Of a stretch of 64,000 nt of DNA, positions 6,451-29,670 are shown in pieces (position 1 is the stretch's first letter; every line of letters starts with the position of its first letter). The notes under the pieces are model-generated. The model made no database searches. It was not told the origin of the DNA and saw nothing but the letters and a program-made list of their open reading frames with translations. The position numbers and the translations under genes are program-made. Source of the DNA: Xanthomonas indica (GTDB taxonomy: Bacteria > Pseudomonadota > Gammaproteobacteria > Xanthomonadales > Xanthomonadaceae); the NCBI RefSeq assembly GCF_040529045.1, contig NZ_CP131914.1, positions 542,501 through 606,500 on the forward strand, in the 5' to 3' direction.

Positions 6451-7317
6451 TCACAACGCCACGACGGAAATCGTCTGCTGCAGCACATGCTGGGCGCCCG
6501 GCGCCAGGTCGATCACCTCGGGCCCGGCGTTGGCCGCTTCCAGGCACACGAACTGGCGCCAGTGCGGGCCGACGTCGGCCATCTTCTGCGCGCCGGCCTC
6601 GCCCGGGTTCCAGGCCACCAGGGTGCGGCTGCCGGTGGTGGCGATCTCGATGCGGCGCTGCAGGCCCGGATCCAGCAGGGTGTAGCGGCCGCCGGCGCCG
6701 GTGTAGATGCGGTCACTGCGGCCGGGGTCGCGCGGGTCCTGCAGGCTCCAGTCGCCGTGCTGGCGATGCGCGGTGGCGTAGTTCTCGAACTTGTCGAGGT
6801 AGTCCAGGCCGTCCAGGCCCTGCACCCGCACCTGGGTGGCGTCGGCGACGCGGAAGTAGTTGTGCAGCGCCTGGGTGAAGCGGGCGGGTGCGGTGCCGAC
6901 GTTGTCGGTGACCAGGCGCTGCTCCAAGGTGGCGCCGATGCGCAGCTGCATGCGCAGGCGCAGCGGCAGGTCGTCGAAGTCGGGCGGCGCCAGGGTCAGG
7001 ACCAGGCTGCCGTCGGCCTCGCGCCGCGCGTCTTGCAATTGCCAGGGCATGGTGCGCACGAAGCCGTGTGCGGGCACGGCATCGCTCTGGCCCTGACGGC
7101 CGAAGTACGGCCAGCACACCGGGGTGCCGCCGCGGATCGGGGTCGGCGTGGGCTGCGCGCTCGGCGACAGCCACAGCGCGTCGGTGCCGCCCTTGGGCAC
7201 GAACGACAGCACCTGGCCGCCGAACAGGCTGATGGCGGCGGTGGACTGCGGGGTCTCCACCAGCAGCGAGGGGTAGCCGTGGAAGTCGCCTGTGCTCAGG
7301 CCGGGGACGTCGGACAT
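6451..7317 (-). CDS. Probable internally initiated D-hexose-6-phosphate mutarotase
   Basis: The second half of the 6451-8739 frame, starting at the internal ATG (7317), gives a 288-residue protein. GGAG lies about 10 bp upstream of that ATG. The domain is a galactose-mutarotase-like beta sandwich with FGGQVLSF, GGTPVCWPYFG, PAHGFVR and HNYFRV, matching YeaD-type glucose-6-phosphate 1-epimerases; the two His residues of the PAHGF and LHNYF motifs are the expected catalytic/binding positions. Homologues are normally free-standing. I infer that this is the ancestral gene and that the upstream stop codon was lost. Confidence 0.6.
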   Translation of the reverse strand: MSDVPGLSTGDFHGYPSLLVETPQSTAAISLFGGQVLSFVPKGGTDALWLSPSAQPTPTPIRGGTPVCWPYFGRQGQSDAVPAHGFVRTMPWQLQDARREADGSLVLTLAPPDFDDLPLRLRMQLRIGATLEQRLVTDNVGTAPARFTQALHNYFRVADATQVRVQGLDGLDYLDKFENYATAHRQHGDWSLQDPRDPGRSDRIYTGAGGRYTLLDPGLQRRIEIATTGSRTLVAWNPGEAGAQKMADVGPHWRQFVCLEAANAGPEVIDLAPGAQHVLQQTISVVAL

Positions 7318-8739
7318 GGGATGGATGCTCCGTGGCGCGGGGGATTGGGCAAAGGCCGGGTAGGCGGCCGGCAGCCGGAATGCGGTGGGCGGTTTGCCGC
7401 CGAACGGCGTAGGGGTCGGAGGAGATGCCGGCGTCGGTGCGGGTGCGGGTGCGGGTGACGCCGCCGGCGCAGGCGGCGTCGGCGCGGCCGGTGGCGGCAC
7501 GGGGGCCGCGGGCGCGCCGCCGGCCTCACGGCGCAGCGCGTCGAGGATGCGTTGCCCGGCGCGGCCGTCCGCCGGCTGCAGGCCCAGGCGCTGCTGCTCG
7601 GCCTGGATCGCGCGGCGGGTGGCGGTGCCGATGGCGCCGTCGGCCTGGCCGATGGCGTGGCCGCGCGCCAGCAGCAAGGTTTGCAGTTCGCGCCGCTCCG
7701 GTCGGCCCAGGCCGGGGTCGTCGGTCGGCCAGGCCGCGACCAACCCGGGCTTGCCGCGCAGCCGGTCGGACAGCAGCGCGATCGCCAAGGCATAGCTTTC
7801 GGCGGCGTTGTAGGCGTAGATCGCGTCGTAGTTGCGGAACACCAGGAACGCCGGGCCGTGCACGCCGGCCGGGATCAGCACCGCCGCCGGGGTCTGCGCC
7901 GCCAGCGCCGGCAGCGCACTGCCATCGGCGGCGGTGAGGCCGCGCGCGCGCCAGTCCGAGAGTGGCCGGCGCTGGGTGCGCCCGGCCAACGCCGGGTCGA
8001 AGCCGTCCGGCAGCTTCACTTCCAGCCCCCACGGCTGGCCGCTCTGCCAGCCGGCCAGCTTGAGGTAATTGGCGGTGGAGGCCAGGGCATCGGGAATGCT
8101 GGCGACCAGGTCGCGGCGGCCGTCGCCATCGCCGTCCACGGCGACGCGGGCGTAGGTGCTGGGCATGAACTGGGTATGGCCGAAGGCGCCGGCCCAGGAC
8201 CCGGTCAGGCCCTCGGGGCGCAGGTCGCCGGCCTGCAGCAGCTTCAGCAGCGCGAACAGTTCGCTGCGGAAGAACGGCTGGCGGCGGCCTTCGCAGGACA
8301 GGGTCAGCAGCGACACCAGCAGCGGGCGCTTGCCGGAGATGCGGCCGTAGTCGCTCTCCACGCCCCACACCGCGACCACCGTCTCCGGGTCCACGCCGTA
8401 TTGTTGCGCCACCTGCGCGAGCAGGTCGCGGTGTGCGGCGAGCATGGCGCGGCCGTCGTCGATGCGCTGGCTGTCGACCAGGCCGGCCAGGTAGTCCCAG
8501 ATCGGCGTGGTGAATTCGGGCTGGGCATCGAGCACCGGCAGCACGCTCGGATCCGGCTGCAACCCGGCGGTGAAGCGATCGAAGGACGCCTCGGCGACGC
8601 CCGCCTTCGCCGCGGCCGTGCGCAGGCCGGCCACGCAGGTGGCGAAGGCCGGATCGGGCGCGGACGGCGCCGCTGCGGGCGGGGTCTGCGCGAGCGCGCA
8701 GGGCGCCGCCAGCAGCAGGATCCAGGCCAAACGCATCAT
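6451..8739 (-). CDS. MltB-like lytic transglycosylase fused in frame to a hexose-6-phosphate mutarotase
   Basis: A 762-residue uninterrupted frame. Residues 1-18 are a signal peptide (MMRLAWILLLAAPCALA). About 30-330 are an MltB/SLT_2 lytic transglycosylase with the catalytic-Glu context AVWGVESDYG and the substrate groove motif FGHTQFMPSTY. About 345-410 are a peptidoglycan-binding domain. A Pro/Ala/Thr-rich linker follows. From about residue 475 the sequence is a complete YeaD/aldose-epimerase-like domain. Lytic transglycosylases act in the periplasm and mutarotases in the cytosol, so a single polypeptide is functionally odd; an independent internal start is described separately. The start is the first of two ATGs, with AGGA 7 bp upstream. 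Confidence 0.75.
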   Translation of the reverse strand: MMRLAWILLLAAPCALAQTPPAAAPSAPDPAFATCVAGLRTAAAKAGVAEASFDRFTAGLQPDPSVLPVLDAQPEFTTPIWDYLAGLVDSQRIDDGRAMLAAHRDLLAQVAQQYGVDPETVVAVWGVESDYGRISGKRPLLVSLLTLSCEGRRQPFFRSELFALLKLLQAGDLRPEGLTGSWAGAFGHTQFMPSTYARVAVDGDGDGRRDLVASIPDALASTANYLKLAGWQSGQPWGLEVKLPDGFDPALAGRTQRRPLSDWRARGLTAADGSALPALAAQTPAAVLIPAGVHGPAFLVFRNYDAIYAYNAAESYALAIALLSDRLRGKPGLVAAWPTDDPGLGRPERRELQTLLLARGHAIGQADGAIGTATRRAIQAEQQRLGLQPADGRAGQRILDALRREAGGAPAAPVPPPAAPTPPAPAASPAPAPAPTPASPPTPTPFGGKPPTAFRLPAAYPAFAQSPAPRSIHPMSDVPGLSTGDFHGYPSLLVETPQSTAAISLFGGQVLSFVPKGGTDALWLSPSAQPTPTPIRGGTPVCWPYFGRQGQSDAVPAHGFVRTMPWQLQDARREADGSLVLTLAPPDFDDLPLRLRMQLRIGATLEQRLVTDNVGTAPARFTQALHNYFRVADATQVRVQGLDGLDYLDKFENYATAHRQHGDWSLQDPRDPGRSDRIYTGAGGRYTLLDPGLQRRIEIATTGSRTLVAWNPGEAGAQKMADVGPHWRQFVCLEAANAGPEVIDLAPGAQHVLQQTISVVAL

Positions 8740-9006
8740 CGCAACATCCTCGCCAACGGCAGGGCCGACATCATAAACAACCGCCGCGTGTGCACTCCGC
8801 TCACGCGGTGCTGGCGGCACGCGGCCGGCAAGGTGTTCCGAGTGTGGCTACGCCGGCAGATCGCGCGACATTCCGCCGCGGCCGGGAGATGCGCGGCGCT
8901 CGGATGCTGCGGCAGGCTGTTCGGAACGACGAGGAGCAGCGCGCCCGTCCTCGCCAACGAACGGTGGTGTGCGGGCCTGCGCATCACCGGCGCGACGGGC
9001 GCCGCT

Positions 9007-9399
9007 TCAGTCCAGCGCGTCGAGGTAATACCAGCGGCCGTCCTCGCGCACGAAACGGCTGTGCTCGGTCATGCGCACGGCGCTGCCGCCGCCGATGCGA
9101 TAGCGCGCCAGGAACGCGACCTCGGCACTGTCGGCGCCGGTCTGCAGCACCCGCTGCACGGTGAGGCCAAGCCAGACCGTGCGCGGGTCGATCTCCACCT
9201 GCGGCGGGCAGGTCGACGGATGCCAGCTCGCGCGCAGGTAATCGGCGTCGCAGCGCACGTAGGCGCTGTAGCGCGACCGCATCAAGGATTCGGCATCCGG
9301 CGCAGGGGCGCCGGCGTGGTACGGCCCACAGCACTGCGCGTAGTCGCGCGGACGGCCGCAGGGGCAGGGATCGGCAAGGCGTGGAGCGGACGGCGACAT
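9007..9399 (-). CDS. YchJ-family SEC-C motif protein
   Basis: A 130-residue YchJ (UPF0225) protein. The N-terminus has the zinc-binding SEC-C pattern [16 protein letters not shown], with Cys residues spaced CxC...CC. The body contains [10 protein letters not shown] and ends in a cystatin/NTF2-like fold segment (RWYYLDALD). The molecular role of the family is unknown. The ATG at 9399 gives the normal family length; a longer N-terminus would be low-complexity Arg/Ser-rich. It is divergent from the TSUP permease, with 85 bp between the starts. Confidence 0.85.
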
Positions 9400-9484
9400 G
9401 TGCCGATTGTGCCGACTACCACGCCGCTGCGCACGCCCCGGCCGACGGCGGCTATGCTTGCGGCCCCTTGCGTGGAGCGCCGGC

Positions 9485-10258
9485 GTGCTGGAGTCGATCC
9501 CCACCGAATTGCCATGGCTGCTGTGCATCGCCTTCGTCGCCGGGCTGGTGGACGCGGCGGTGGGCGGCGGCGGCCTGATCCAGTTGCCCGGGCTGTTCGC
9601 GACCTTGCCGCAACAGGCACCGGCAGTGGTGCTGGGCACCAACAAGTTCAGCGCCATGGCCGGCACCGGCACCGCCGCCTGGCGCTACGCGCGCCACGTG
9701 CGCCTGCCCTGGCGGCCGGTGCTGTACGCGACCGCGACCGCGTTCGTGTTTTCCTTCCTCGGCGCCACCGCGGTGAGCCTGCTGCCGAAACAGGCGGTGC
9801 GCCCGCTGATCCTGGTGCTGCTGATCGCGATGCTGGGCTATACCCTGGTCAAGAAGGACTTCGGCGCGCTGCACCGGCCGCGCCACATCGGCCGCCGCGA
9901 ACTGGCGATCGCGCTGGCGATCGGCGCGGCGATCGGCTTCTACGACGGCTTCTTCGGCCCGGGCACCGGCAGCTTCCTGATCTTCCTGTTCATCCGCTTC
10001 TTCGGCCTGGATTTCCTGCGCGCCTCGGCCGCCTCGAAAGTGGTGAACCTGGCCACCAACCTGGCGGCGCTGTGCTTCTTCGTGCCCAGCGGCAAGATCC
10101 TGCTGGCCGCGGCGGTGCCGATGGCCGCGGCCAACGTGGCCGGCGCGGTGACCGGCACGCGGCTGGCGCTGCGCGGCGGCACGCCGCTGATCCGGCAGTT
10201 GTTCCTGGTGCTGGTGGTGGTGCTGATCGCCAAGATGGGCTGGGACCTGCTGCACTGA
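9485..10258 (+). CDS. TauE/SafE (TSUP) family membrane permease
   Basis: A 257-residue inner-membrane protein with 7-8 hydrophobic helices. It has the two family signatures: [14 protein letters not shown] in the first repeat half, and [14 protein letters not shown] in the second. TSUP proteins export sulfite, organosulfonates or related anions; the substrate here is unknown. The GTG start at 9485 is supported by GGAG 8 bp upstream and by the beginning of the first helix. It is a monocistronic plus-strand gene converging on jetC, with a 98-bp gap showing no clear terminator. Confidence 0.82.
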
Positions 10259-10356
10259 GCGCAGTGCCCGGCGCCGGGACGCCGCATCCCTGCCCTCCCG
10301 GGCGATGCTGGCGCGCGCACGCGCCCGCGGGCGTGCCCCCAAGCCGCCAGCGTCGC

Positions 10357-13300
10357 TCAGCGACTGCGGCGTTTGGCGGTCGCCGAAGGCGCCTTGAGTG
10401 CCGCCGCCTTGGTCGGTTTCGCAGGTTTGCTGGCTGCGGCGGCTTGCGCGGTCTTCGCCGACGCCGACCGTGCGGCCGGCCCGGTTGCCTTGGACGGACG
10501 TGTTGCGGCCGCGGCGGACTGGCGTGACGCCTTCGCCGAAGGGGCCTTGGCCGCAGGCGTCGCGGCAGCCGTGCGGGCGCGTTTGCCGGGTGCCGCGGGC
10601 GACGCCTTGCGCGTGGTCGACTTCGCGCCGTTGCCGCGGCCATCGCGCGCCTTGCCAGAGGCACGCGCCGGCGCGACACCGGTGTCTGCAACAGCGCCTG
10701 CGCCGGCCTCCGCGGTGGTGGTCGCTGCGTCCGCGGCAGGCGGTGGCAGAGCGGCGCTAGCCTGGTCCACCGCCGCGCCGGATTCCACCGCAGGCGTCGC
10801 CGCCTCGTTGCGGCTGCGCTCGGGCAGCTTCAACCGGTGCGCCTGCTCGTCGTATTCGATCAACAGCACGCCGGAGTTGTGGCGGCCGCTGATCTCGACG
10901 AAGCAGGCGCCGCCGATGAAGGGCTCCAGCGTCATCACCGATTTCAGCGGCGTGGCCACCACCATCTGGAAACCGAAGTTCTCGAAGATGTTCATCGCCA
11001 GCGCGGTGAACTCGTTGTCGGCCTTGTCGAAGGCCTCGTCCAGCACCACCGCGGCGTAGCGCGGCAGTTCGCCGTCCTCGCCGCCGAGCTGGTAGCGCAA
11101 TGCCGCGGCCAGGCAGGTGGTGGCCAGCTTCTGGCGCTGGCCGCCGGACTTGCCGGCGCCGCTGCGGTAGATCTCCACCTGTGCGCGGCTGTCCGCGTCC
11201 AGTTCCACGCCGACGAATTCCACGTGCTGGCGCACGTCCAGCACCTGCTCGCGCCAGCGCCGCAGTTCCGGTTCTTGCGCGCCGAGCCGCTGCACCAGCC
11301 CGCGCAGGGTGGCGAACTGCGCCTCGGCCAGCGCCCGGTCCTCGGTCTGCTGATGGCCGAGCACGGCGCGCAACTGCTGCTGGAACTCCTGCACCTCGAG
11401 CAGGCGCCGGTCGCTGACTTCGATGGTCAGCAAGGTGCCGCGGTTGAACGGCACCTGTTCCAGGCTGGCGTTGACCTCGTCCATGCGCTGCTTGATCGCC
11501 TTGTGCGCTTCGGCGGTGTAGCGCTGCAGCGCCAGCAGGTTGTTCTTGCTCTGGGTCTGCAGCAGGTCGAAGAAGCGGCCTTCGTGGCGCGGCAGGCCGT
11601 CGCTCTCCAGCCGCTGCAGGCGCGCCAGGAAGTCGTCGGCGCTGGCCAGGCTCACGGTGAAATCGCCGCTGTCCTCCGGCCACTGCTGGCAGTAGCGACG
11701 GAAGCAGTCCAGCACCTGCTGGCTCAGCCGCGCGTCCTGCGCCTGGCTCTGCGCCAACTGTTCGCCGAGGCCGCGCTCGACGCTGCGCAGATGCGCCTCC
11801 AGGTTATCCAGGCTCAGCGGCGGCAGCGCTGCCAGGCGCGCGTCCAGCCCCGCCACCTGCGCCGGGCCGATCACCGCGGTGGCCACGCGCGCGGCGCAGG
11901 TCTCGCGCTGCGCTTCCAGGCGCGCGCGCTCGCGGCTCAGCTGCGCGCGCTCCAGGCGCACGTCCTCGTAGGTGCGGCGGGCCTGGTCGCGGCGTGCGCG
12001 GACGGTGGCGATCTGCTCGCCCAGCGCACGCAGCGCGGTGTCGCCTTCGCGCAGTTGCAGCAGTTGCTCGGCGATGTCGCTCAGGCGCTGCAGCTTGGGC
12101 GCTACGTCGATCTCGTCCCACTCGCGCTCGGCCAGGGTATGCGCGGCCAGTTGCCGGCCCTGGTCCTGCTCGCGCTGCTTGCGCAGGGCGGCGACGTCGG
12201 CATCGCAGGCAGCGATGCGCTGCGCCAGGGTCTGCCCCTCGCGCTCGAAGACCTTGAGCTTGTCGCGGTTGTCGTAGCCGAGCAGCCAGCGCTTGCGGTC
12301 GCCGACGGCGTGGCGGTCGTCCTTCTCGTAGCGGTCGCCCGGGTGCTTGACCTGGCCCTCGCGGGTGATCGCACGCTCGGCATCGCGCAATTGCGCCACG
12401 TTATCGACGCAGGTGTAGTCGAAACGCCGCGCCAGCTCCTGGCGCAGCCACGGCGCATAGGCGTGGTCGCGCAACTCCAGCTTGCGCAGCAGCGACTTGG
12501 CGTCGGGCGCGCGCTGCTGCAGCGGCGCATTGTGGCGTACGCGGAAGTACACCAGGCGGGTGCCGAGCTGGGTCTTGTTGACCCAGTCGGCGACGCTGGC
12601 GTAGTGGCGTTCGTCGACCAGCAGCGATTGGGCGAAGCCGTGCAGCACGCGCTCGATCGCGCCGCGCCAGGCGGCCTGGTCGGCCTCCACCTGCACCAAC
12701 TCGCCGACGAACGGCAGTGCAGCTTCGGACAGGCCGGTCTCGGCGCACAGCCGCGCGCGCAGGGCCTGCATCGGCGCGGGAATGCTCGAGGGCGCCTTCA
12801 GCAGTGCCTCGATCTCGGTGCGGATGACCGCGAAGCGGCGTTCGTCCTCGCGGCGCTCGGCCATGCGCTCGGCGATCGCCTCGTCCAGGCTGCTGGCCTC
12901 GCCGGCGACGCCGTCGCGCAGCGCGCGCGCCTGCGCCACCTGCTCGGCGAAACCGCTGGCGCTGCCGGCCAGGCCCATGCCGAGCTGGCGGCAGGCCTGT
13001 TCGACCTGGCTGCGGCGGCGCATGCGCTCGTCGCGCTCGCGCTCGACGCGGCCGCGTTCGCGCTCCAGCGCCTCGACCTGTTCGCCGCCCTGCGCGCGCT
13101 GCTGGGTCTCCAGCTCGGCCAGGGTCTGTTCGTGGTTGTCCAGGGCCTCGCGGCGCTGTCCTTCCTCGCCGGCCAGGCCGCGATCCTGGGTGTCCAGTTC
13201 CTGCAGGCGCGCATCCAGCAGGGCCAGGCGGCGCTGCTCGCGGTAGCCATCGATGCCCAGCTGCAGTTCGCGCAGCTCGCCGACGCTGTGGCGCAGCGCC

Positions 13301-14181
13301 AGCAGTTCGGCGTGGTAGTCGCGCGCCGGGGTCAGGGTTTCCACCTGGCGCCGCGCGGTCACCACCGCATGGTGCGCGCCATCGAGTTCGGCGAAGTCCT
13401 CGACCAGGCGGTCGGCCGCCTCGAAGGTGCGCGGCTCATCGAGCATGAAGCTGCGCAGGAAGGCGTTGAGGTCGCCCAGGTTCTTCGCCGACTGGGTCTT
13501 GTGCAGCAGCCGCAGCGCCATCTCGTTGCCGATGCCGAGCAGGTGGCGGAAGCGCTCGGCATAGCCGGCGAAGCTGTCGAAGTGGTGCACGTCCTCGCCC
13601 AGGCGCAGCTTGAGCCGGCGCAGGTCCAGGTCGAAGCCGTCCAGCTCGGCGGCCACGTCGAAGCCGCGCGGCACCACCATGTAGTGCTTGCGCACGTCGG
13701 CCGCGGCGGTGCCGCTGCCGGCGATCCAGAACAGCCGCACCAGGCTCACCGCCTGGCCCTGCGCGTTGCGGTACTCCAGCGCCAGCGCCGACCAGGTCGC
13801 GCCCTTGCGCAGGTACTGGGTGGCGATCTCGCCGGAGGCGCTGTCCTGCTGGTCGGCCCAGGCGCCGCGCACGTAGGACACCAGGCTGCGGTCGCGGCCG
13901 CTGCGCTCGGCCTCGCGCGCGGCGGCGTTGAAGTCGACGATGCTCGGCGGCGTCAGCAGCGCCGACATCGCATCGAGCAGGGTCGACTTGCCCGAACCCG
14001 AGCGGCCGACGAACAGGAAGCCCTTCTCGGCGATCGGCACGTCGGTCAGGCCGTTGAAGGTGCCCCAGTTGTGCACCTGCAGGCGGCGCATGCGGTACTG
14101 CTGCGCGCGCTGCTCGGCCAGGGTCTCGGCGAACAGGGACGGGGCGACGGGGACGGTGGACGATTCGGACAGGGACGTCAT
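10357..14181 (-). CDS. JetC/MksB-like SMC-type ATPase with a basic C-terminal tail
   Basis: A 1274-residue SMC-like ATPase. Walker A GRSGSGKST is at residues 59-67; long coiled-coil arms (about 290-480 and 620-850) flank a hinge-like region. The ABC signature KSGGQRQK lies near residue 1010, and Walker B VVLDEAFDKAD near residue 1042. The architecture matches the type I Wadjet JetC / MksB ATPase. Residues 1128-1274 are an unusual Ala/Lys/Pro/Arg-rich tail resembling histone H1-like bacterial proteins. It is last in a jetA-jetB-jetC order; 95 bp separate it from jetB. No jetD (Toprim nuclease) homologue is found downstream or elsewhere in the window. Confidence 0.88.
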   Translation of the reverse strand: MTSLSESSTVPVAPSLFAETLAEQRAQQYRMRRLQVHNWGTFNGLTDVPIAEKGFLFVGRSGSGKSTLLDAMSALLTPPSIVDFNAAAREAERSGRDRSLVSYVRGAWADQQDSASGEIATQYLRKGATWSALALEYRNAQGQAVSLVRLFWIAGSGTAAADVRKHYMVVPRGFDVAAELDGFDLDLRRLKLRLGEDVHHFDSFAGYAERFRHLLGIGNEMALRLLHKTQSAKNLGDLNAFLRSFMLDEPRTFEAADRLVEDFAELDGAHHAVVTARRQVETLTPARDYHAELLALRHSVGELRELQLGIDGYREQRRLALLDARLQELDTQDRGLAGEEGQRREALDNHEQTLAELETQQRAQGGEQVEALERERGRVERERDERMRRRSQVEQACRQLGMGLAGSASGFAEQVAQARALRDGVAGEASSLDEAIAERMAERREDERRFAVIRTEIEALLKAPSSIPAPMQALRARLCAETGLSEAALPFVGELVQVEADQAAWRGAIERVLHGFAQSLLVDERHYASVADWVNKTQLGTRLVYFRVRHNAPLQQRAPDAKSLLRKLELRDHAYAPWLRQELARRFDYTCVDNVAQLRDAERAITREGQVKHPGDRYEKDDRHAVGDRKRWLLGYDNRDKLKVFEREGQTLAQRIAACDADVAALRKQREQDQGRQLAAHTLAEREWDEIDVAPKLQRLSDIAEQLLQLREGDTALRALGEQIATVRARRDQARRTYEDVRLERAQLSRERARLEAQRETCAARVATAVIGPAQVAGLDARLAALPPLSLDNLEAHLRSVERGLGEQLAQSQAQDARLSQQVLDCFRRYCQQWPEDSGDFTVSLASADDFLARLQRLESDGLPRHEGRFFDLLQTQSKNNLLALQRYTAEAHKAIKQRMDEVNASLEQVPFNRGTLLTIEVSDRRLLEVQEFQQQLRAVLGHQQTEDRALAEAQFATLRGLVQRLGAQEPELRRWREQVLDVRQHVEFVGVELDADSRAQVEIYRSGAGKSGGQRQKLATTCLAAALRYQLGGEDGELPRYAAVVLDEAFDKADNEFTALAMNIFENFGFQMVVATPLKSVMTLEPFIGGACFVEISGRHNSGVLLIEYDEQAHRLKLPERSRNEAATPAVESGAAVDQASAALPPPAADAATTTAEAGAGAVADTGVAPARASGKARDGRGNGAKSTTRKASPAAPGKRARTAAATPAAKAPSAKASRQSAAAATRPSKATGPAARSASAKTAQAAAASKPAKPTKAAALKAPSATAKRRSR

Positions 14182-14276
14182 CGGGAACTCATCGAAAAAC
14201 GGGGATGGCCGCCACGCGGCCGGCGCACTTGGCCAGTGGCGGCGCTAGGCGCGGGCGACGCGCGGGCGCAGACCGG

Positions 14277-14963
14277 TCATGGCGCCGGCTCGGCCGCGCC
14301 GTCGCGCAGGCCGCGGTAGGCCGCCGCCAGCGCCTGCACGTCCTCGGCCGAGAACAGCAGCTTCAATGCCGGCGAGACCTCGTAGCGATCCTCGCTGCCG
14401 CGCAGCTTGGACAGCAGGTGGTTGTCGCGCATCTTGGCGATCGCCGCCAGCACCCGCCGGGCGAAGCCGGCGCGGTCGGTGGACACGTTCTTCTCGTACA
14501 CCGACAGCACTTCCAGCAGCTGCGCCTCGTCGACCACCGCGCGCTCGCCGCGGGTGTCGGCCTCGGCCAGTTGCTGGCGCAGGAACAGCAGCAGCACCGA
14601 CTCGATGAAGGTCAGTGGCGCGGTACGCAACAGCGCCGGGGTCTCCAGTTCGCCGGTGTCGGCCTGGCGCGCGAACGCCACGCCGCCGTCGCGGTCCAGC
14701 ACCAGTTCCAGGAACAGCTCGCTCAGCACGCGGCGGATCGCCGCCTCGTGGCGCAGCAGCGCCGGCCACAGCGGGCCGTGCCGGTAGGCATCGACGCTGG
14801 GGCCGGACAACAGTTGGCACAGCGCGCGCCGCGCCTCCAGCGGCAGGCTGCCGCTGTCGCCGGCGAACAGCGCGGTGCCGGCCTCGGCCGACGCCGTCGA
14901 TGCGGCCGTGGCGGCATCGCCGGGATCGGCGTCGTGGCCGTGGAATTCGTCAGACCAGCTCAT
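14277..14963 (-). CDS. JetB/MksE-like subunit (DUF4194)
   Basis: A 228-residue protein recognisable as a DUF4194-type kite subunit by position and by its winged-helix-like body ([21 protein letters not shown], then [15 protein letters not shown]). In Wadjet and Mks complexes this subunit bridges the kleisin and the SMC heads. Its ATG overlaps the end of the upstream jetA by 14 bp, showing tight coupling. The N-terminal 40 residues are Asp/Ala-rich and probably disordered. No catalytic residues are expected. Confidence 0.82.
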
Positions 14964-16419
14964 TGCGTTTTTCCTTGGTGAACCACACCAGCGGGATGCG
15001 CGCGCGCCGGACCTGGCCGTCGCCGCCTTCCCATTGCACCGCTTCCCATTCGCCGTCGACGACCACGCCGTGGCGGGTGCCCAGCGCCAGGTAGCCGATC
15101 ACGCTGCCCAGGCCCTGCGCCGCCGGGCGCTGCCGCAGCGCCTCGCCGATGCTCAGTTGCGGCTGCCGGCCGAGCAGGTCGTGCAGGTCGTTGCGCAGGC
15201 CGCGCAGGTCGATCTCCGACTGCGCCACCAGGTCGCCGACGCTGTCCAGCGAGATCGTCGCCGCCTCGGCCGCCTGCACCCGCCCGTCCACCTGCTGGCT
15301 GCGCGGGTCGTGCAGGCGCCACTGCGACAGCGAGCGCAGCCGCGCACTGCTCAGCGGCAGCACGTAGCCGGTGGCGGCGGTGGCGTGCAGGTGGTCGCGC
15401 AACTGCAGCGCTTCGCCCTGGGCCTGCTTCAGCAACTGGTTGAGCCGGCGCTGTTCCAGGTAGCCGCGGCTCTGCACGAACCCGCGCAGGCTGCGCGCGA
15501 AATGCTGCATCACCTCGTGCACCTGGCCGCCGCGTTCGAGCAGCGTGCCGGTGAGCCCGCGCAGGAAGGCACGCTCGTGGCGGTCCAGGCGGCGGGCGAA
15601 GCCGCGCGCCAGCAACGCCTCCAGCGCCGCGTCCAGCTGCACGCTCTGCTCGGCATCGTTGAGCAGGCTCCAGAACGCCTGGAAGCTGCGCCCGGCCTCG
15701 CTCTCGCCGATCACGTCGATGCCGGCGAACAGCTTCTCCAGCACGTCGCCGCGCGCGCCCTCGTCGTCGATGATGCGCTCGCGGAACTCGCGGTTGAGCC
15801 GCTCGAAATCGTCGCGGACGCGGCGGAAGTCCTCGGTCAGGTCGTCGGACAGGCGGATGATGTCGCGGGTGCGCTCCAGCGCGCGCTTGCCGTCCAGCGC
15901 GGCCAGCTTGCCCGCGGCCACGCGCTCGATCTCCGCATCCAGGCGCTCGCGCTCGGCGCGCAGCGCGGCCAGGCGCGCGTCCGGATCGGTCTCGGTCTGC
16001 CCGGCCAGTTGCACCAGCTGCTGGATCACCAGCGACAGCCGGCTTTCGGTGGCCACGCTGGCGCTGTCGCGCACGCCGGCGATGAAGCGGATCGCCTGCG
16101 CCGCCTGCCGCGACAGTTCGTACTCTTCCTGCGCATCGCCCTCGGGCAGGCGCCGTTCCAGCCAGCCCTGCGCCAGCCAGTGCGCCACGTAGGCCTGGGC
16201 GGTGCGCGGCAGTTCGCGCGAGAGCTGGTCGTCCTTCAGCGCATCGAGCTGGCGCTGCAGGCGTTCGTGCAGCACATCGGCCGGCAGCCGCCGCTGGGCG
16301 TCGCCCAGCAGGGTCTGCAGCAGGCCGATCAGCTCCGGTGCATGGTCGGCAGCGAGCAGCTTCCACAACGGCTGTTCGCGCAACTGGCGATAGCCGGCGA
16401 TCCGGACATGCGGCTTCAT
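14950..16419 (-). CDS. JetA/MksF-like kleisin subunit (DUF3375)
   Basis: A 489-residue DUF3375-type protein. The N-terminal part is helical and winged-helix-like (about 1-130), followed by a coiled-coil segment ([19 protein letters not shown], about 165-240) and a C-terminal region containing [13 protein letters not shown] and ending in [12 protein letters not shown]. This is the kleisin-like core of type I Wadjet systems. It is first in the operon. The ATG at 16419 gives the usual MxxH...QPLWKLL family beginning; the in-frame extension upstream lies antisense over folE and is rejected. It starts only 32 bp from the folE stop, so read-through from folE is possible. Confidence 0.85.
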
Positions 16420-16451: not shown

Positions 16452-17051
16452 TCAGCGCGCCCGCTCGATGAAGCGCAGGAACTCGGCGCGGGTGCGCGCG
16501 TCCTCGCGGAAGGTGCCGAGCATCTTCGAGGTGACCATGCTGACGCCGCGCTTGTGGATGCCGCGGGTGGTCATGCACTCGTGCGCGCCTTCCACCACCA
16601 CGCCCACGCCCAGCGGCTGCAGCACGTCCTGGATACACTGGGCGATCTGCGCGGTCATCTTCTCCTGCACCTGGAAGCGCCGCGCATAGGCCTCGACCAC
16701 GCGCGCCAGCTTGCTGATGCCCACCACCTTGCCGCGCGGCAGGTAGCCGACGTGGACCTTGCCGATGATCGGCGCCATGTGGTGTTCGCAGTGGCTTTCG
16801 TACTCGATGTCGCGCAGCACGATCAATTCGTCGTAGCCGGCCACTTCCTCGAAGGTGCGCAGCAGGTACTCGCGCGGGTCGGCGCGGTAGCCGCTGAACC
16901 AGTCGCCGTAGGCCTCGGCTACGCGCCGCGGGGTATCCAGCAGGCCTTCGCGGCTGGGGTCCTCGCCGGCCCAGCGCAGCAGGGTGCGCACCGCGTCTTC
17001 GGCCTGCGCCTGGGTAACCGGGGGAGTGGAGCTGTTGTCTGAATCGGCCAT
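16452..17051 (-). CDS. folE: GTP cyclohydrolase I
   Basis: A 199-residue GTP cyclohydrolase I, the first step of tetrahydrofolate synthesis (GTP to dihydroneopterin triphosphate). Zinc ligands are visible in the CEHHMAP motif and in [10 protein letters not shown]; the substrate-binding ISKLARVVE and QERMT-like QEKMTAQIA motifs are intact. The ATG at 17051 gives the normal family length; an in-frame ATG nine codons upstream is possible but adds Pro/Arg-rich residues. It sits directly upstream of the jetABC-like operon on the same strand. Confidence 0.93.
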
Positions 17052-17218
17052 GGGGGAACGCCCGTGAGGGGGCTGCATGGTACCCGAGTCGCCTGGCAGC
17101 CGCCGCATGGCGGCGCCCGCGCGGCGGGGCGACCGGGGCGACACGGGGTCCGCCGTTCAGCGTCCGCCTGTGCCGCGCCCGGGCGGCGCCTGCACCGCCC
17201 GGGGCGCCACCGTGCCGG

Positions 17219-27969: not shown

Positions 27970-29670
27970 ATGACAAGCAAAAAGAATTTTAAGGACATAT
28001 TGGAATCCATTGATGCACTTTCGAATAGAGGCGGCATATCCAGGCAGAGAGCCTTTGCCGCCTGGTATGCCATTCAATTTTTCGAAATTGACGAAGATGA
28101 TGCTTTAGAATCAGCAGCGGCTGATGGCGGAAACGACCAGGGGATCGACATAGTTTTCGCAGATCATAGACTTGAAGAGATGGTTGTTATCCAAGCTCAT
28201 TGCCCGGAAAATTTAGAAAAGAAAACCCCCAAGGCAAAATGGGACGCACTGGTCTCGTCCCTTCCATACATTAGAAATCATGGTAATTTAGTTAAAGCTG
28301 GGCGTCCAGATCTCGCAGAACAAATAAAGCAAATTAAAAGCCAAAATCCAGGCTTTAAGATTTCTGCGGGATTAATAACACTCGGAGCACACTCTGACGC
28401 CATTAAGAAGTCGCTTATTGCCCATAAGGCAGACAGCAGCTATAAAGACGTCAGCTTCTTTTATCTTAACCAAGACGATATCCATACTAGATATCAATCC
28501 CTTATCGACGCCGAACTTGGCATACCCGAAGATACGCTGGAATTTTCTGGCGGCCATTTTGAGGATGAAGGCGAGTATGGTCGATCGTGGGTTGGATCTA
28601 TTTCAAGCTCAGAATTGCAACGCCTCCATAGCTCGCACGAAAATAGATTGTTTGCAGGAAACGTGCGCCTGTACTTAGGAAGTCGAAAAGGAGGAATCAA
28701 TGAGCAAATTATAAAAACGGCCGAGAATTCTCCTGGTAATTTCTGGGCACTCAATAACGGCATTACTATAGTCGCTGATTCCGTATCCCTCAACCAAAAG
28801 ACGTCTAAAAGCGCTGCCATCAAGGGAACGAGCCTTACTTTGAGAAGGTTTTCCATAGTTAATGGGTGTCAAACGACTTCTAGCTTGGTTCGAGCAAACG
28901 CGAACCAGAGCGCAAAAGTTCTTGCGCGTGTTATTGCGGCTCGCAAAGACCTAAAGAATGAAATTGTCCGTTATAACAACTCTCAAAACTCGGTTAAAAT
29001 ATGGACCGTTCGCGCTGTTGACGACATACAAGAGCGACTGCGCAAAGAATTCGCAAAATCAAATATTTCTTACGCCCCGAAACAATCTGGATCTCGCAGA
29101 AAGAAAGACGGTGCAACCATCGAATTAGATAAGGTGACCCAGTATCTCGCATCCGCTGAACAGGATTATCTCATACAAGCTATAAACAATAAGAGTGAAC
29201 TTTTTGACCAGCCTTACCAACATCTGTTTGGCCGCGACATAGGTGCGCCCGATGTGTATCTTGCGTGGCTTGTTGGAAATTTTTCGGAGGAAGAGCGAAA
29301 GAAACTTCATTCTGCGGTTAAAGAGGACGAAAGTGCGTCATTACTTGGCGTCGCTAGCAGCTACTGGATAATCTTTAGCACATATAGAATTTTGGCGAGC
29401 CAGGATTCTTTCCAAAGAGATGCCATAAGCCTTGAAAAAATGCTTCTTCCAGAATTTCAAAATGCCTTGCGCAAGTATGCGACGAAAGCAACCGAGATAT
29501 TTTACGAAGCAGCAATTGACACTTATGAGCGGGAAGAATATGGATCAATAAAGAGTTGCTTTCGCTCGAATAAATTTCTTCAAAAAATAAGCGCAAAACT
29601 TGGCATGAAAGCGGCCAAGCTCAAAGGCTTACCCAATCTCACGCACGCTGCAAAATCTGCCCATAAGTAA
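27970..29670 (+). CDS. AIPR-family abortive-infection phage-resistance protein
   Basis: A 566-residue protein with the AIPR core: NVRLYLGSRKGGINEQI, NFWALNNGITIVAD and FSIVNGCQTTSSL. The N-terminus (about 30-85) resembles a restriction-endonuclease fold (ADGGNDQGIDIVFAD, then VVIQAH), with His where the usual catalytic Lys would be. AIPR proteins act in abortive infection or restriction-like defence. The base composition is strikingly AT-rich compared with the roughly 70% GC neighbours, a sign of recent transfer. It lies 83 bp after the Mrr-type nuclease. No methyltransferase is adjacent. Confidence 0.85.
   Translation: MTSKKNFKDILESIDALSNRGGISRQRAFAAWYAIQFFEIDEDDALESAAADGGNDQGIDIVFADHRLEEMVVIQAHCPENLEKKTPKAKWDALVSSLPYIRNHGNLVKAGRPDLAEQIKQIKSQNPGFKISAGLITLGAHSDAIKKSLIAHKADSSYKDVSFFYLNQDDIHTRYQSLIDAELGIPEDTLEFSGGHFEDEGEYGRSWVGSISSSELQRLHSSHENRLFAGNVRLYLGSRKGGINEQIIKTAENSPGNFWALNNGITIVADSVSLNQKTSKSAAIKGTSLTLRRFSIVNGCQTTSSLVRANANQSAKVLARVIAARKDLKNEIVRYNNSQNSVKIWTVRAVDDIQERLRKEFAKSNISYAPKQSGSRRKKDGATIELDKVTQYLASAEQDYLIQAINNKSELFDQPYQHLFGRDIGAPDVYLAWLVGNFSEEERKKLHSAVKEDESASLLGVASSYWIIFSTYRILASQDSFQRDAISLEKMLLPEFQNALRKYATKATEIFYEAAIDTYEREEYGSIKSCFRSNKFLQKISAKLGMKAAKLKGLPNLTHAAKSAHK

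Follow-up and report, generated by a model that had tools for sequence, protein, structure and literature searches.

A type I Wadjet JetABC complex without JetD and with a histone-like JetC tail in Xanthomonas, possibly kept as a second condensin

In type I Wadjet systems (JetABCD, also known as EptABCD or MksBEFG), the specific cleavage of plasmids results from JetD acting together with JetABC, and MksBEF is thought to have arisen from JetABCD by loss of JetD; whether immune systems gave rise to housekeeping condensins such as MukBEF and MksBEF has been presented as an unresolved question (PMC10586767, which, like the other papers cited here, is represented by extracts). The roles of MksBEF and MksBEFG have been described (PMC7485682, PMC7083940, PMC10123090, PMC10512200), JetA-D has been reported from most Xylella strains (PMC9148166), and Wadjet is present in Ralstonia (PMC7251935). 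In Stenotrophomonas maltophilia, a conserved Wadjet I locus without jetD lies with RecBCD in an island flanked by yfcA and mlaF, and has been called "probably inactive" (PMC11680222). Here, we describe a jetABC operon without jetD in a stretch of 64,000 nucleotides from Xanthomonas indica (contig NZ_CP131914.1, positions 542,501 to 606,500; hereafter, the window), in which the JetC homologue carries a long C-terminal tail rich in alanine, lysine and proline.

The reading that we prefer, with a probability of roughly 0.52, is that this operon encodes a type I Wadjet JetABC complex minus JetD that is kept as a non-cutting, MksBEF-like extruder of chromosome loops, equipped with a DNA-anchoring tail and working beside the canonical Smc protein. 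It is supported because JetD is absent from the whole genome and from most related genomes with a JetD-less JetC, because JetABC is under strong purifying selection, because the clade to which the window belongs (clade M) is uniformly without a known JetD, because 102 of 103 loci without annotated JetD hold no JetD remnant, because the site is origin-proximal and Smc and ScpA are present, because the number of lysines in the tail is steady, because nearly all genomes with JetC outside the family also hold JetD_C, and because MksBEF of Pseudomonas aeruginosa provides a precedent.

The identity of the three subunits is clear, and their reading frames lie at the positions given in the initial annotation. 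JetA matches the Pfam family DUF3375 (E-value 5.6e-156), JetB matches DUF4194 (2.7e-46) and MksE (2.8e-8; 34.7 bits against a cut-off of 27 bits), and JetC matches SbcC_Walker_B and AAA_29. The type I Wadjet models of PADLOC (JetA1, JetB1 and JetC1) match almost over their full length, in agreement with Pfam and with the initial annotation, which had found the arrangement to be that of a type I Wadjet locus; one operon holds JetA, JetB and JetC, and the subunits are likewise of the MksB/MksE/MksF type (Pfam MksE above its cut-off, DUF3375 and DUF4194). The solved JetC structures 8dk2, 8as8 and 9qxt align with JetC from residue 25-28 to 1107-1112, and the motor motifs are intact (GRSGSGKS for Walker A, SGGQ for the ABC signature and AVVLDE for Walker B). 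The closest named loci, as judged by JetC, are those of Xanthomonas sp. F10 and NCPPB 1128 (99-100% identity). A canonical Smc, with a frame of 1184 amino acids (aa) matching both SMC_N ends, is encoded in the same genome together with ScpA.

What is missing is JetD, the Toprim nuclease with DUF3322 and JetD_C, and in this the locus departs from type I Wadjet and agrees with MksBEF, which has no MksG/JetD. The initial annotation had noted the absence of JetD from the window, and this holds for the whole genome (one contig, 4,807,150 bp, 100% complete), in which the profiles JetD_C (PF09983) and DUF3322 (PF11795) have 0 matches; as a positive control, the same searches found matches in one of 14 control genomes, that of C. 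glutamicum. A JetD hidden elsewhere in the genome, which the initial annotation had named as a finding that would refute its proposal, is thereby ruled out. Among 297 genomes drawn from the family, 76 contain a JetC relative (E <= 1e-30) and 70 a JetD_C match. By a hand count from the match tables and the locus annotation, 38 of the family genomes have a JetD-less JetC of the main lineage, 24 of the window type and 14 others; the contig-cut G030 is excluded, and G092, which has a stop in JetC, is counted among the 24 and judged on its JetC and JetD_C matches only. No JetD_C match exists anywhere in 35 of these 38 genomes, the exceptions being G043 and G277, which carry a second, JetD-bearing system, and G295, with a weak partial match. 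A class-wide draw of 321 genomes contained 34 with a JetC relative, 31 of them outside the window's own family, and 28 of these 31 also have JetD_C (G324, G411 and the fragment G365 do not). Within these genome draws, JetC without JetD is thus exceptional outside the family. It should be noted that weak partial JetD_C matches, often covering about profile positions 26-172, occur in many family genomes without JetC, where they may represent other Toprim proteins or Wadjet types.

The loss of JetD appears to have been clean. Annotation of JetA-D and the tail covered the window, 80 named loci and 60 fetched regions, 141 sources in all; removal of 6 partial JetC sequences and of duplicates left 108 distinct JetC rows, 79 without JetD, 25 with JetD and 4 unknown for want of flanking sequence; one of these 4, L062, was reassigned as JetD-positive, its JetD gene being cut by the contig end. 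A tblastn search for JetD remnants found none in 102 of the 103 loci without annotated JetD (a set that includes duplicates and a few short flanks), and because the sole match was again L062, JetD can be regarded as cleanly gone. In JetD-less loci with yfcA directly downstream, about 20-170 bp separate the end of JetC from that of yfcA, compared to at least 1.2 kb in JetD-positive loci; some M-type Xanthomonas and Stenotrophomonas have further genes between the two. The initial annotation had also considered a Wadjet variant that uses another nuclease, a proposal for which the operon and its surroundings gave no candidate: where a gene other than yfcA follows, a Pfam search of 10 downstream frames, from 6 of 12 listed loci, found no nuclease in JetD's place, 5 of the 10 frames having no family and the identified products being a TonB receptor, an asparaginase and proteins of the EAL and RHS types. 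One of the loci, L090, comes from a record titled Bacillus subtilis and holds a Stenotrophomonas-like jetABC locus, which points to a mislabelled or contaminated assembly.

In spite of the missing nuclease, the complex is under strong constraint. In 12 JetD-less pairs from the window's clade, 5 of which share the window, the ratio of nonsynonymous to synonymous substitution rates (dN/dS) was 0.017-0.109 for JetC, 0.009-0.112 for JetA and 0.089-0.296 for JetB. The JetC of 4 JetD-positive pairs gave 0.033-0.082, and the similarity of the two JetC ranges means that constraint on the JetD-less complex is of about the same strength as on the armed one. Intact ATPase motifs and purifying selection, as expected of an MksBEF condensin, are both present. 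A remnant or pseudogene can be rejected, since the motifs are intact and the dN/dS values of JetA and JetC are strongly purifying; the JetC frames of the window's clade are open, with a single stop, in G092. Broken JetC genes, split or with a stop, were seen besides in G265, G202, G198 and G067, all JetD-positive, so that four of the five genomes with a broken JetC have a JetD match; a cost of the armed system is one possible cause, errors in assembly another.

Trees were built from JetC (68 rows) and from joined JetA, JetB and JetC (64 rows) by quick IQ-TREE runs, for which support is given by the Shimodaira-Hasegawa-like approximate likelihood ratio test (SH-aLRT) only. Both place the window in clade M, which comprises 22 rows with a support of 100; 20 of them lack JetD, two are unknown, and all 22 have tails, of 41-229 aa. 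Its sister, clade W (29 rows), contains JetD-positive Xanthomonas, together with Stenotrophomonas, nearly all of which lack JetD, and the outer rows are JetD-positive with the exception of five Dyella and one Coralloluteibacterium. The state of JetD changes 9 times on the JetC tree and 8 times on the joined tree, and that of the tail 3 to 4 times, depending on the length cut-off. The tree alone cannot separate gain from loss; however, in a JetD tree the isolated Stenotrophomonas JetD (L092) groups with the JetDs of clade W (support 97, inner order unresolved), which makes repeated loss likelier than re-gain. JetD re-gain is thus disfavoured, and JetD was, as judged from the sequences, probably lost several times, and cleanly.

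A comparison of the flanking genes reveals how the two forms are related at the site. L057, which is JetD-positive, and L044, which is JetD-negative, are both titled X. hortorum and are 99.0% identical in folE and 94.4% in yfcA at the nucleotide level, compared to 77.7% in jetA, 69.4% in jetB and 75.4% in jetC. Over 24 pairs of W-type and M-type rows from this same part of Xanthomonas (4 of 6 hand-chosen W-type rows against 6 of 11 hand-chosen M-type rows), the means were 94.8% for folE, 88.7% for yfcA and 75.7% for jetC. The window itself is closer to six chosen W-type rows in folE and yfcA (91.4% and 90.7%) than to six M-type rows (88.0% and 82.3%), and closer to the M type than to the W type in jetC (82.7% versus 80.1%). 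The flanks are alike and jetABC is diverged; therefore, armed and disarmed cassettes replace each other between folE and yfcA. The site is origin-proximal: the folE-site JetC lies 44-205 kb from dnaA in all 16 single-contig genomes, 13 JetD-less and 3 JetD-positive, and 157 kb from it in the window's genome (the distances assume circular contigs, and a 17th genome, G153, with 8 contigs, is excluded). We would tentatively propose, at somewhat less than even odds, that this origin-proximal site in Xanthomonas and Stenotrophomonas alternates between a plasmid-killing, armed Wadjet and a disarmed allele, with a histone-like tail in the window's clade, that has been domesticated as a second condensin.

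The tail of JetC, which the initial annotation had described as rich in alanine, lysine and proline, is real and in frame with JetC; it consists of a 58-aa linker followed by a 94-aa cationic end with 22 lysines or arginines and no acidic residue. It begins 11-16 residues past the part of JetC that aligns with the solved structures, and since that alignment ends at 1107-1112, the ATPase head must end where the tail emerges. The last 100 residues of JetC contain 13 lysines and one acidic residue. No other stop-to-stop frame of the window, among 208 with a length of 150 aa or more, has as many lysines there (the runner-up, a frame with an AIPR match, has 12 lysines with 10 acidic residues), and the lysine-rich, acid-free, alanine- and proline-rich terminal segment that characterizes H1-like proteins is present. 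No Pfam family matched the tail up to E 1, so that it is not a known Pfam domain, and a search against its own genome returned only the tail itself and one match at E 0.06. The tail is present in many relatives, and its absence from all of them, which the initial annotation had named as evidence against its proposal, was not found. Outside the family, no comparable tail was found in the 27 measured of 32 class-wide JetC places (L191-L217, one cut), in which the longest remainders are 55-73 aa with at least as many acidic as basic residues. Among window-type rows, the tail ranges from 41 to 315 aa; the tail of L046, at 315 aa, has an end unlike that of its relatives, and that of L134 has 108 aa versus about 210-240 aa in its relatives, as after an internal deletion.

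The sequence of the tail drifts, with a dN/dS of 0.19-0.71, far above that of the JetC core, and its lysine number does not. All 11 sequences of the window's group have 12-15 tail lysines at identities to the window down to 0.31, and the lysines turn over in position: in the alignment, a lysine occurs in one or more sequences at 35 columns, and in at least 10 of the 11 sequences at only 2. A null model biased towards guanine and cytosine (GC), based on the spectrum at four-fold sites, predicted 2-7 lysines at an identity of 0.71, which may overstate lysine loss, since codon bias feeds into the spectrum; a more lenient K80 null predicted 7-13 at 0.74 and 4-11 at 0.48. The relatives at identities of 0.70-0.74 have 13-15 lysines, at or just above the upper edge of the K80 range, and four relatives at 0.31-0.34 have 12-15, above that range, although the relatives compared are not independent of one another. 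In addition, swaps between acidic and basic residues are rare in the tail (4 observed versus 34 expected).

A possible mode of action can be proposed. By homology, JetA, JetB and JetC would form a kleisin-KITE-SMC (structural maintenance of chromosomes) motor in which JetC, given its motifs, would hydrolyse ATP and move or extrude DNA. Without JetD, there would be no cut, and the complex would be harmless on the chromosome. The tail would extend by its linker from the ATPase head and keep the cationic segment close to DNA bound at the heads, where, if disordered and DNA-binding as its composition suggests, it might anchor the complex to DNA non-specifically and so increase residence or compaction. 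The whole cassette travels as an allele, JetD-bearing and JetD-less versions being swapped between folE and yfcA. The suggestion in the initial annotation of a condensin-like system that lost plasmid cleavage thus stands as far as composition is concerned, with JetABC under strong selection and JetD cleanly gone; a condensin-like function in the cell is a prediction from sequence.

Several observations weigh against a chromosomal function or against a role for the tail. The JetD-less form is found at the same site as the defence cassette, with RecC and RecD genes nearby. A lost JetD-docking surface was looked for in conserved JetABC columns and none was visible: of the columns conserved in the JetD-positive sets, clade M keeps 158 in JetA, 72 in JetB and 384 in JetC, those changed in M alone number 1, 1 and 5, and those changed only in the JetD-positive W rows number 3 in each protein. 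Such a pattern would equally suit a complex that is still in contact with a nuclease. (The IFDR motif reported for the JetB N-terminus was unrecognisable by eye in JetD-positive and JetD-negative JetB.) These observations favour the main alternative, namely that JetABC acts on plasmids without JetD, by extruding and compacting small circles and so silencing or mis-segregating them, or by handing them to a nuclease elsewhere, for example RecBCD. Silencing or mis-segregation of this kind has been proposed for Smc5/6 on viral circles. The exchange of armed and disarmed cassettes, and RecBCD in the extracts on the S. maltophilia island, point in the same direction. However, neither the operon nor the scanned downstream frames contained a nuclease, RecBCD needs DNA ends and serves general repair, and the site is origin-proximal throughout, albeit in the three JetD-positive genomes as well. 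A plasmid-directed function is rather unlikely in our estimate, and no sequence result separates it from a non-cutting extruder.

Regarding the tail, its net charge of 13 to 22 is within the ranges of the null models for nearly all sequences (8-20 under the GC-biased null; 7-19 at an identity of 0.74 and 1-18 at 0.48 under K80), and therefore the case for constraint rests on the number of lysines. Changes from basic to neutral residues are not depleted (59 observed versus 63 expected), nor are those from acidic to neutral residues (35 versus 39), and in four S. terrae-like rows of clade M the net charge of the tail is -5 to +1. Together with the high dN/dS and the variable length, this is what would be expected if the complex were a condensin and its tail a drifting, low-complexity extension of no function, which is improbable in view of the steady lysine number above the null predictions and the rarity of acid-basic swaps. 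Nor does the tail follow the loss of JetD: tails of at least 40 aa occur in 5 of the 25 JetD-positive rows, some of them rich in lysine and arginine, none occurs in 37 of the 79 JetD-negative rows, and an independent-pairs test showed no association, albeit with almost no power (6-7 pairs, within which the tail barely varies). A tail that compensates for the loss of JetD is thus unsupported, and the tail seems to be a separate feature of the lineage and not a replacement of JetD. That the locus is a Wadjet remnant without activity, the proposal made for the JetD-less version in S. maltophilia ("probably inactive" in PMC11680222), would fit the fact that plasmid restriction requires JetD, yet the dN/dS of JetA and JetC is at most 0.112 in all 12 pairs, and the intact motifs and frames make this explanation hardly credible. 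Scarcely more probable is that the JetD-less JetABC restrains or assists another, JetD-bearing system of the same genome; the second systems of G043 and G277 would fit, but the 35 genomes without any JetD_C match, the window's among them, would not.

The features of the locus are compiled in Table 1. jetA and jetB overlap by 14 bp, the JetA frame sits within a longer open frame, and the gene order is folE, jetA, jetB and jetC on the minus strand, followed by yfcA on the opposite strand.

Table 1. Genes and segments of the jetABC locus, with positions in the window
Feature	Position	Strand	Basis or remark
jetC / mksB-like SMC ATPase, 1274 aa	10357..14181	-	ORF (open reading frame), Pfam, PADLOC, PDB relatives
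jetB / mksE-like, DUF4194, KITE subunit, 228 aa	14277..14963	-	ORF, Pfam, PADLOC; PDB JetB 8dk1
jetA / mksF-like, DUF3375, kleisin, 489 aa	14950..16419	-	ORF, Pfam, PADLOC
JetC tail linker, residues 1123-1180	10642..10815	-	composition: 4 K/R, 7 D/E
JetC tail cationic end, residues 1181-1274	10360..10641	-	12 K, 10 R, 0 D/E, 34 A, 9 P
98-bp gap between jetC end and yfcA end	10259..10356	none	position of jetD in JetD-positive relatives; tblastn found no remnant
folE, GTP cyclohydrolase I, upstream flank	16452..17144	-	32 bp before jetA
yfcA-like TauE/SafE exporter, downstream flank	9398..10258	+	next gene, 98 bp after jetC

Elsewhere in the window, the initial annotation had named a RecBCD operon and an Mrr nuclease. 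For the former, RecC and RecD models match, and the scanned RecB frame has no Pfam family. The latter (27970-29670, plus strand) does not hold: the frame matches AIPR at 6.9e-33, while Mrr models reach only 0.046 and 0.11, and this AIPR protein with its lysine-rich C-terminus may be a phage-resistance gene. A further frame of 789 aa (6451-8820, minus strand) combines an SLT_2 lytic transglycosylase, PG_binding_1 and Aldose_epim, and represents either a fusion or two neighbouring genes whose separating stop codon was lost.

The JetD-less S. maltophilia locus (PMC11680222) and the origin of MksBEF from Wadjet by loss of JetD (PMC10586767) have already been published, to judge from the extracts. 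As far as searched, the selection on the JetD-less complex, the exchange of cassettes and the tail are new; in the open-licence literature (subscription journals were outside the scope), no report was found of a tailed JetC, of MksB with a lysine-rich C-terminal tail or of an MksB condensin in Xanthomonas. Because armed and disarmed versions occupy the same site in close relatives, comparisons between sister species offer a direct test of the change of function, for which the tail is a concrete, removable part. If the site does alternate between an armed Wadjet and a domesticated second condensin, these loci would represent a natural series in which an immune SMC complex turns into a housekeeping one.

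The tails of bacterial histone H1-like and HU-type proteins are cationic C-termini rich in alanine, lysine and proline, in which the sequence drifts and the composition stays, and we know of no histone-like tail on P. aeruginosa MksBEF. The JetC tail shares the cationic C-terminus rich in these residues; it differs in being carried by an SMC-type ATPase, in owing about half of its charge to arginine and in matching no Pfam family. With the JetD-less Wadjet I of S. maltophilia ("defense island #27"), the locus has in common, according to the extracts, the yfcA border, RecBCD in the island and a highly conserved JetABC without JetD; in contrast to the window, tails are at most 13 aa long in 12 of 13 loci titled S. 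maltophilia (L066 has 91 aa), and its authors call that locus probably inactive (PMC11680222). Compared with type I Wadjet, JetA, JetB and JetC are homologous over nearly their full length and the gene order is identical, whereas the locus in the window lacks the JetD nuclease and has an added cationic tail on JetC. P. aeruginosa MksBEF, compared by extracts of its published description, is likewise an SMC-kleisin-KITE complex without MksG that has Smc in the same cell; the family of the window, by comparison, displays the loss of JetD at one locus, alongside living relatives that carry JetD.

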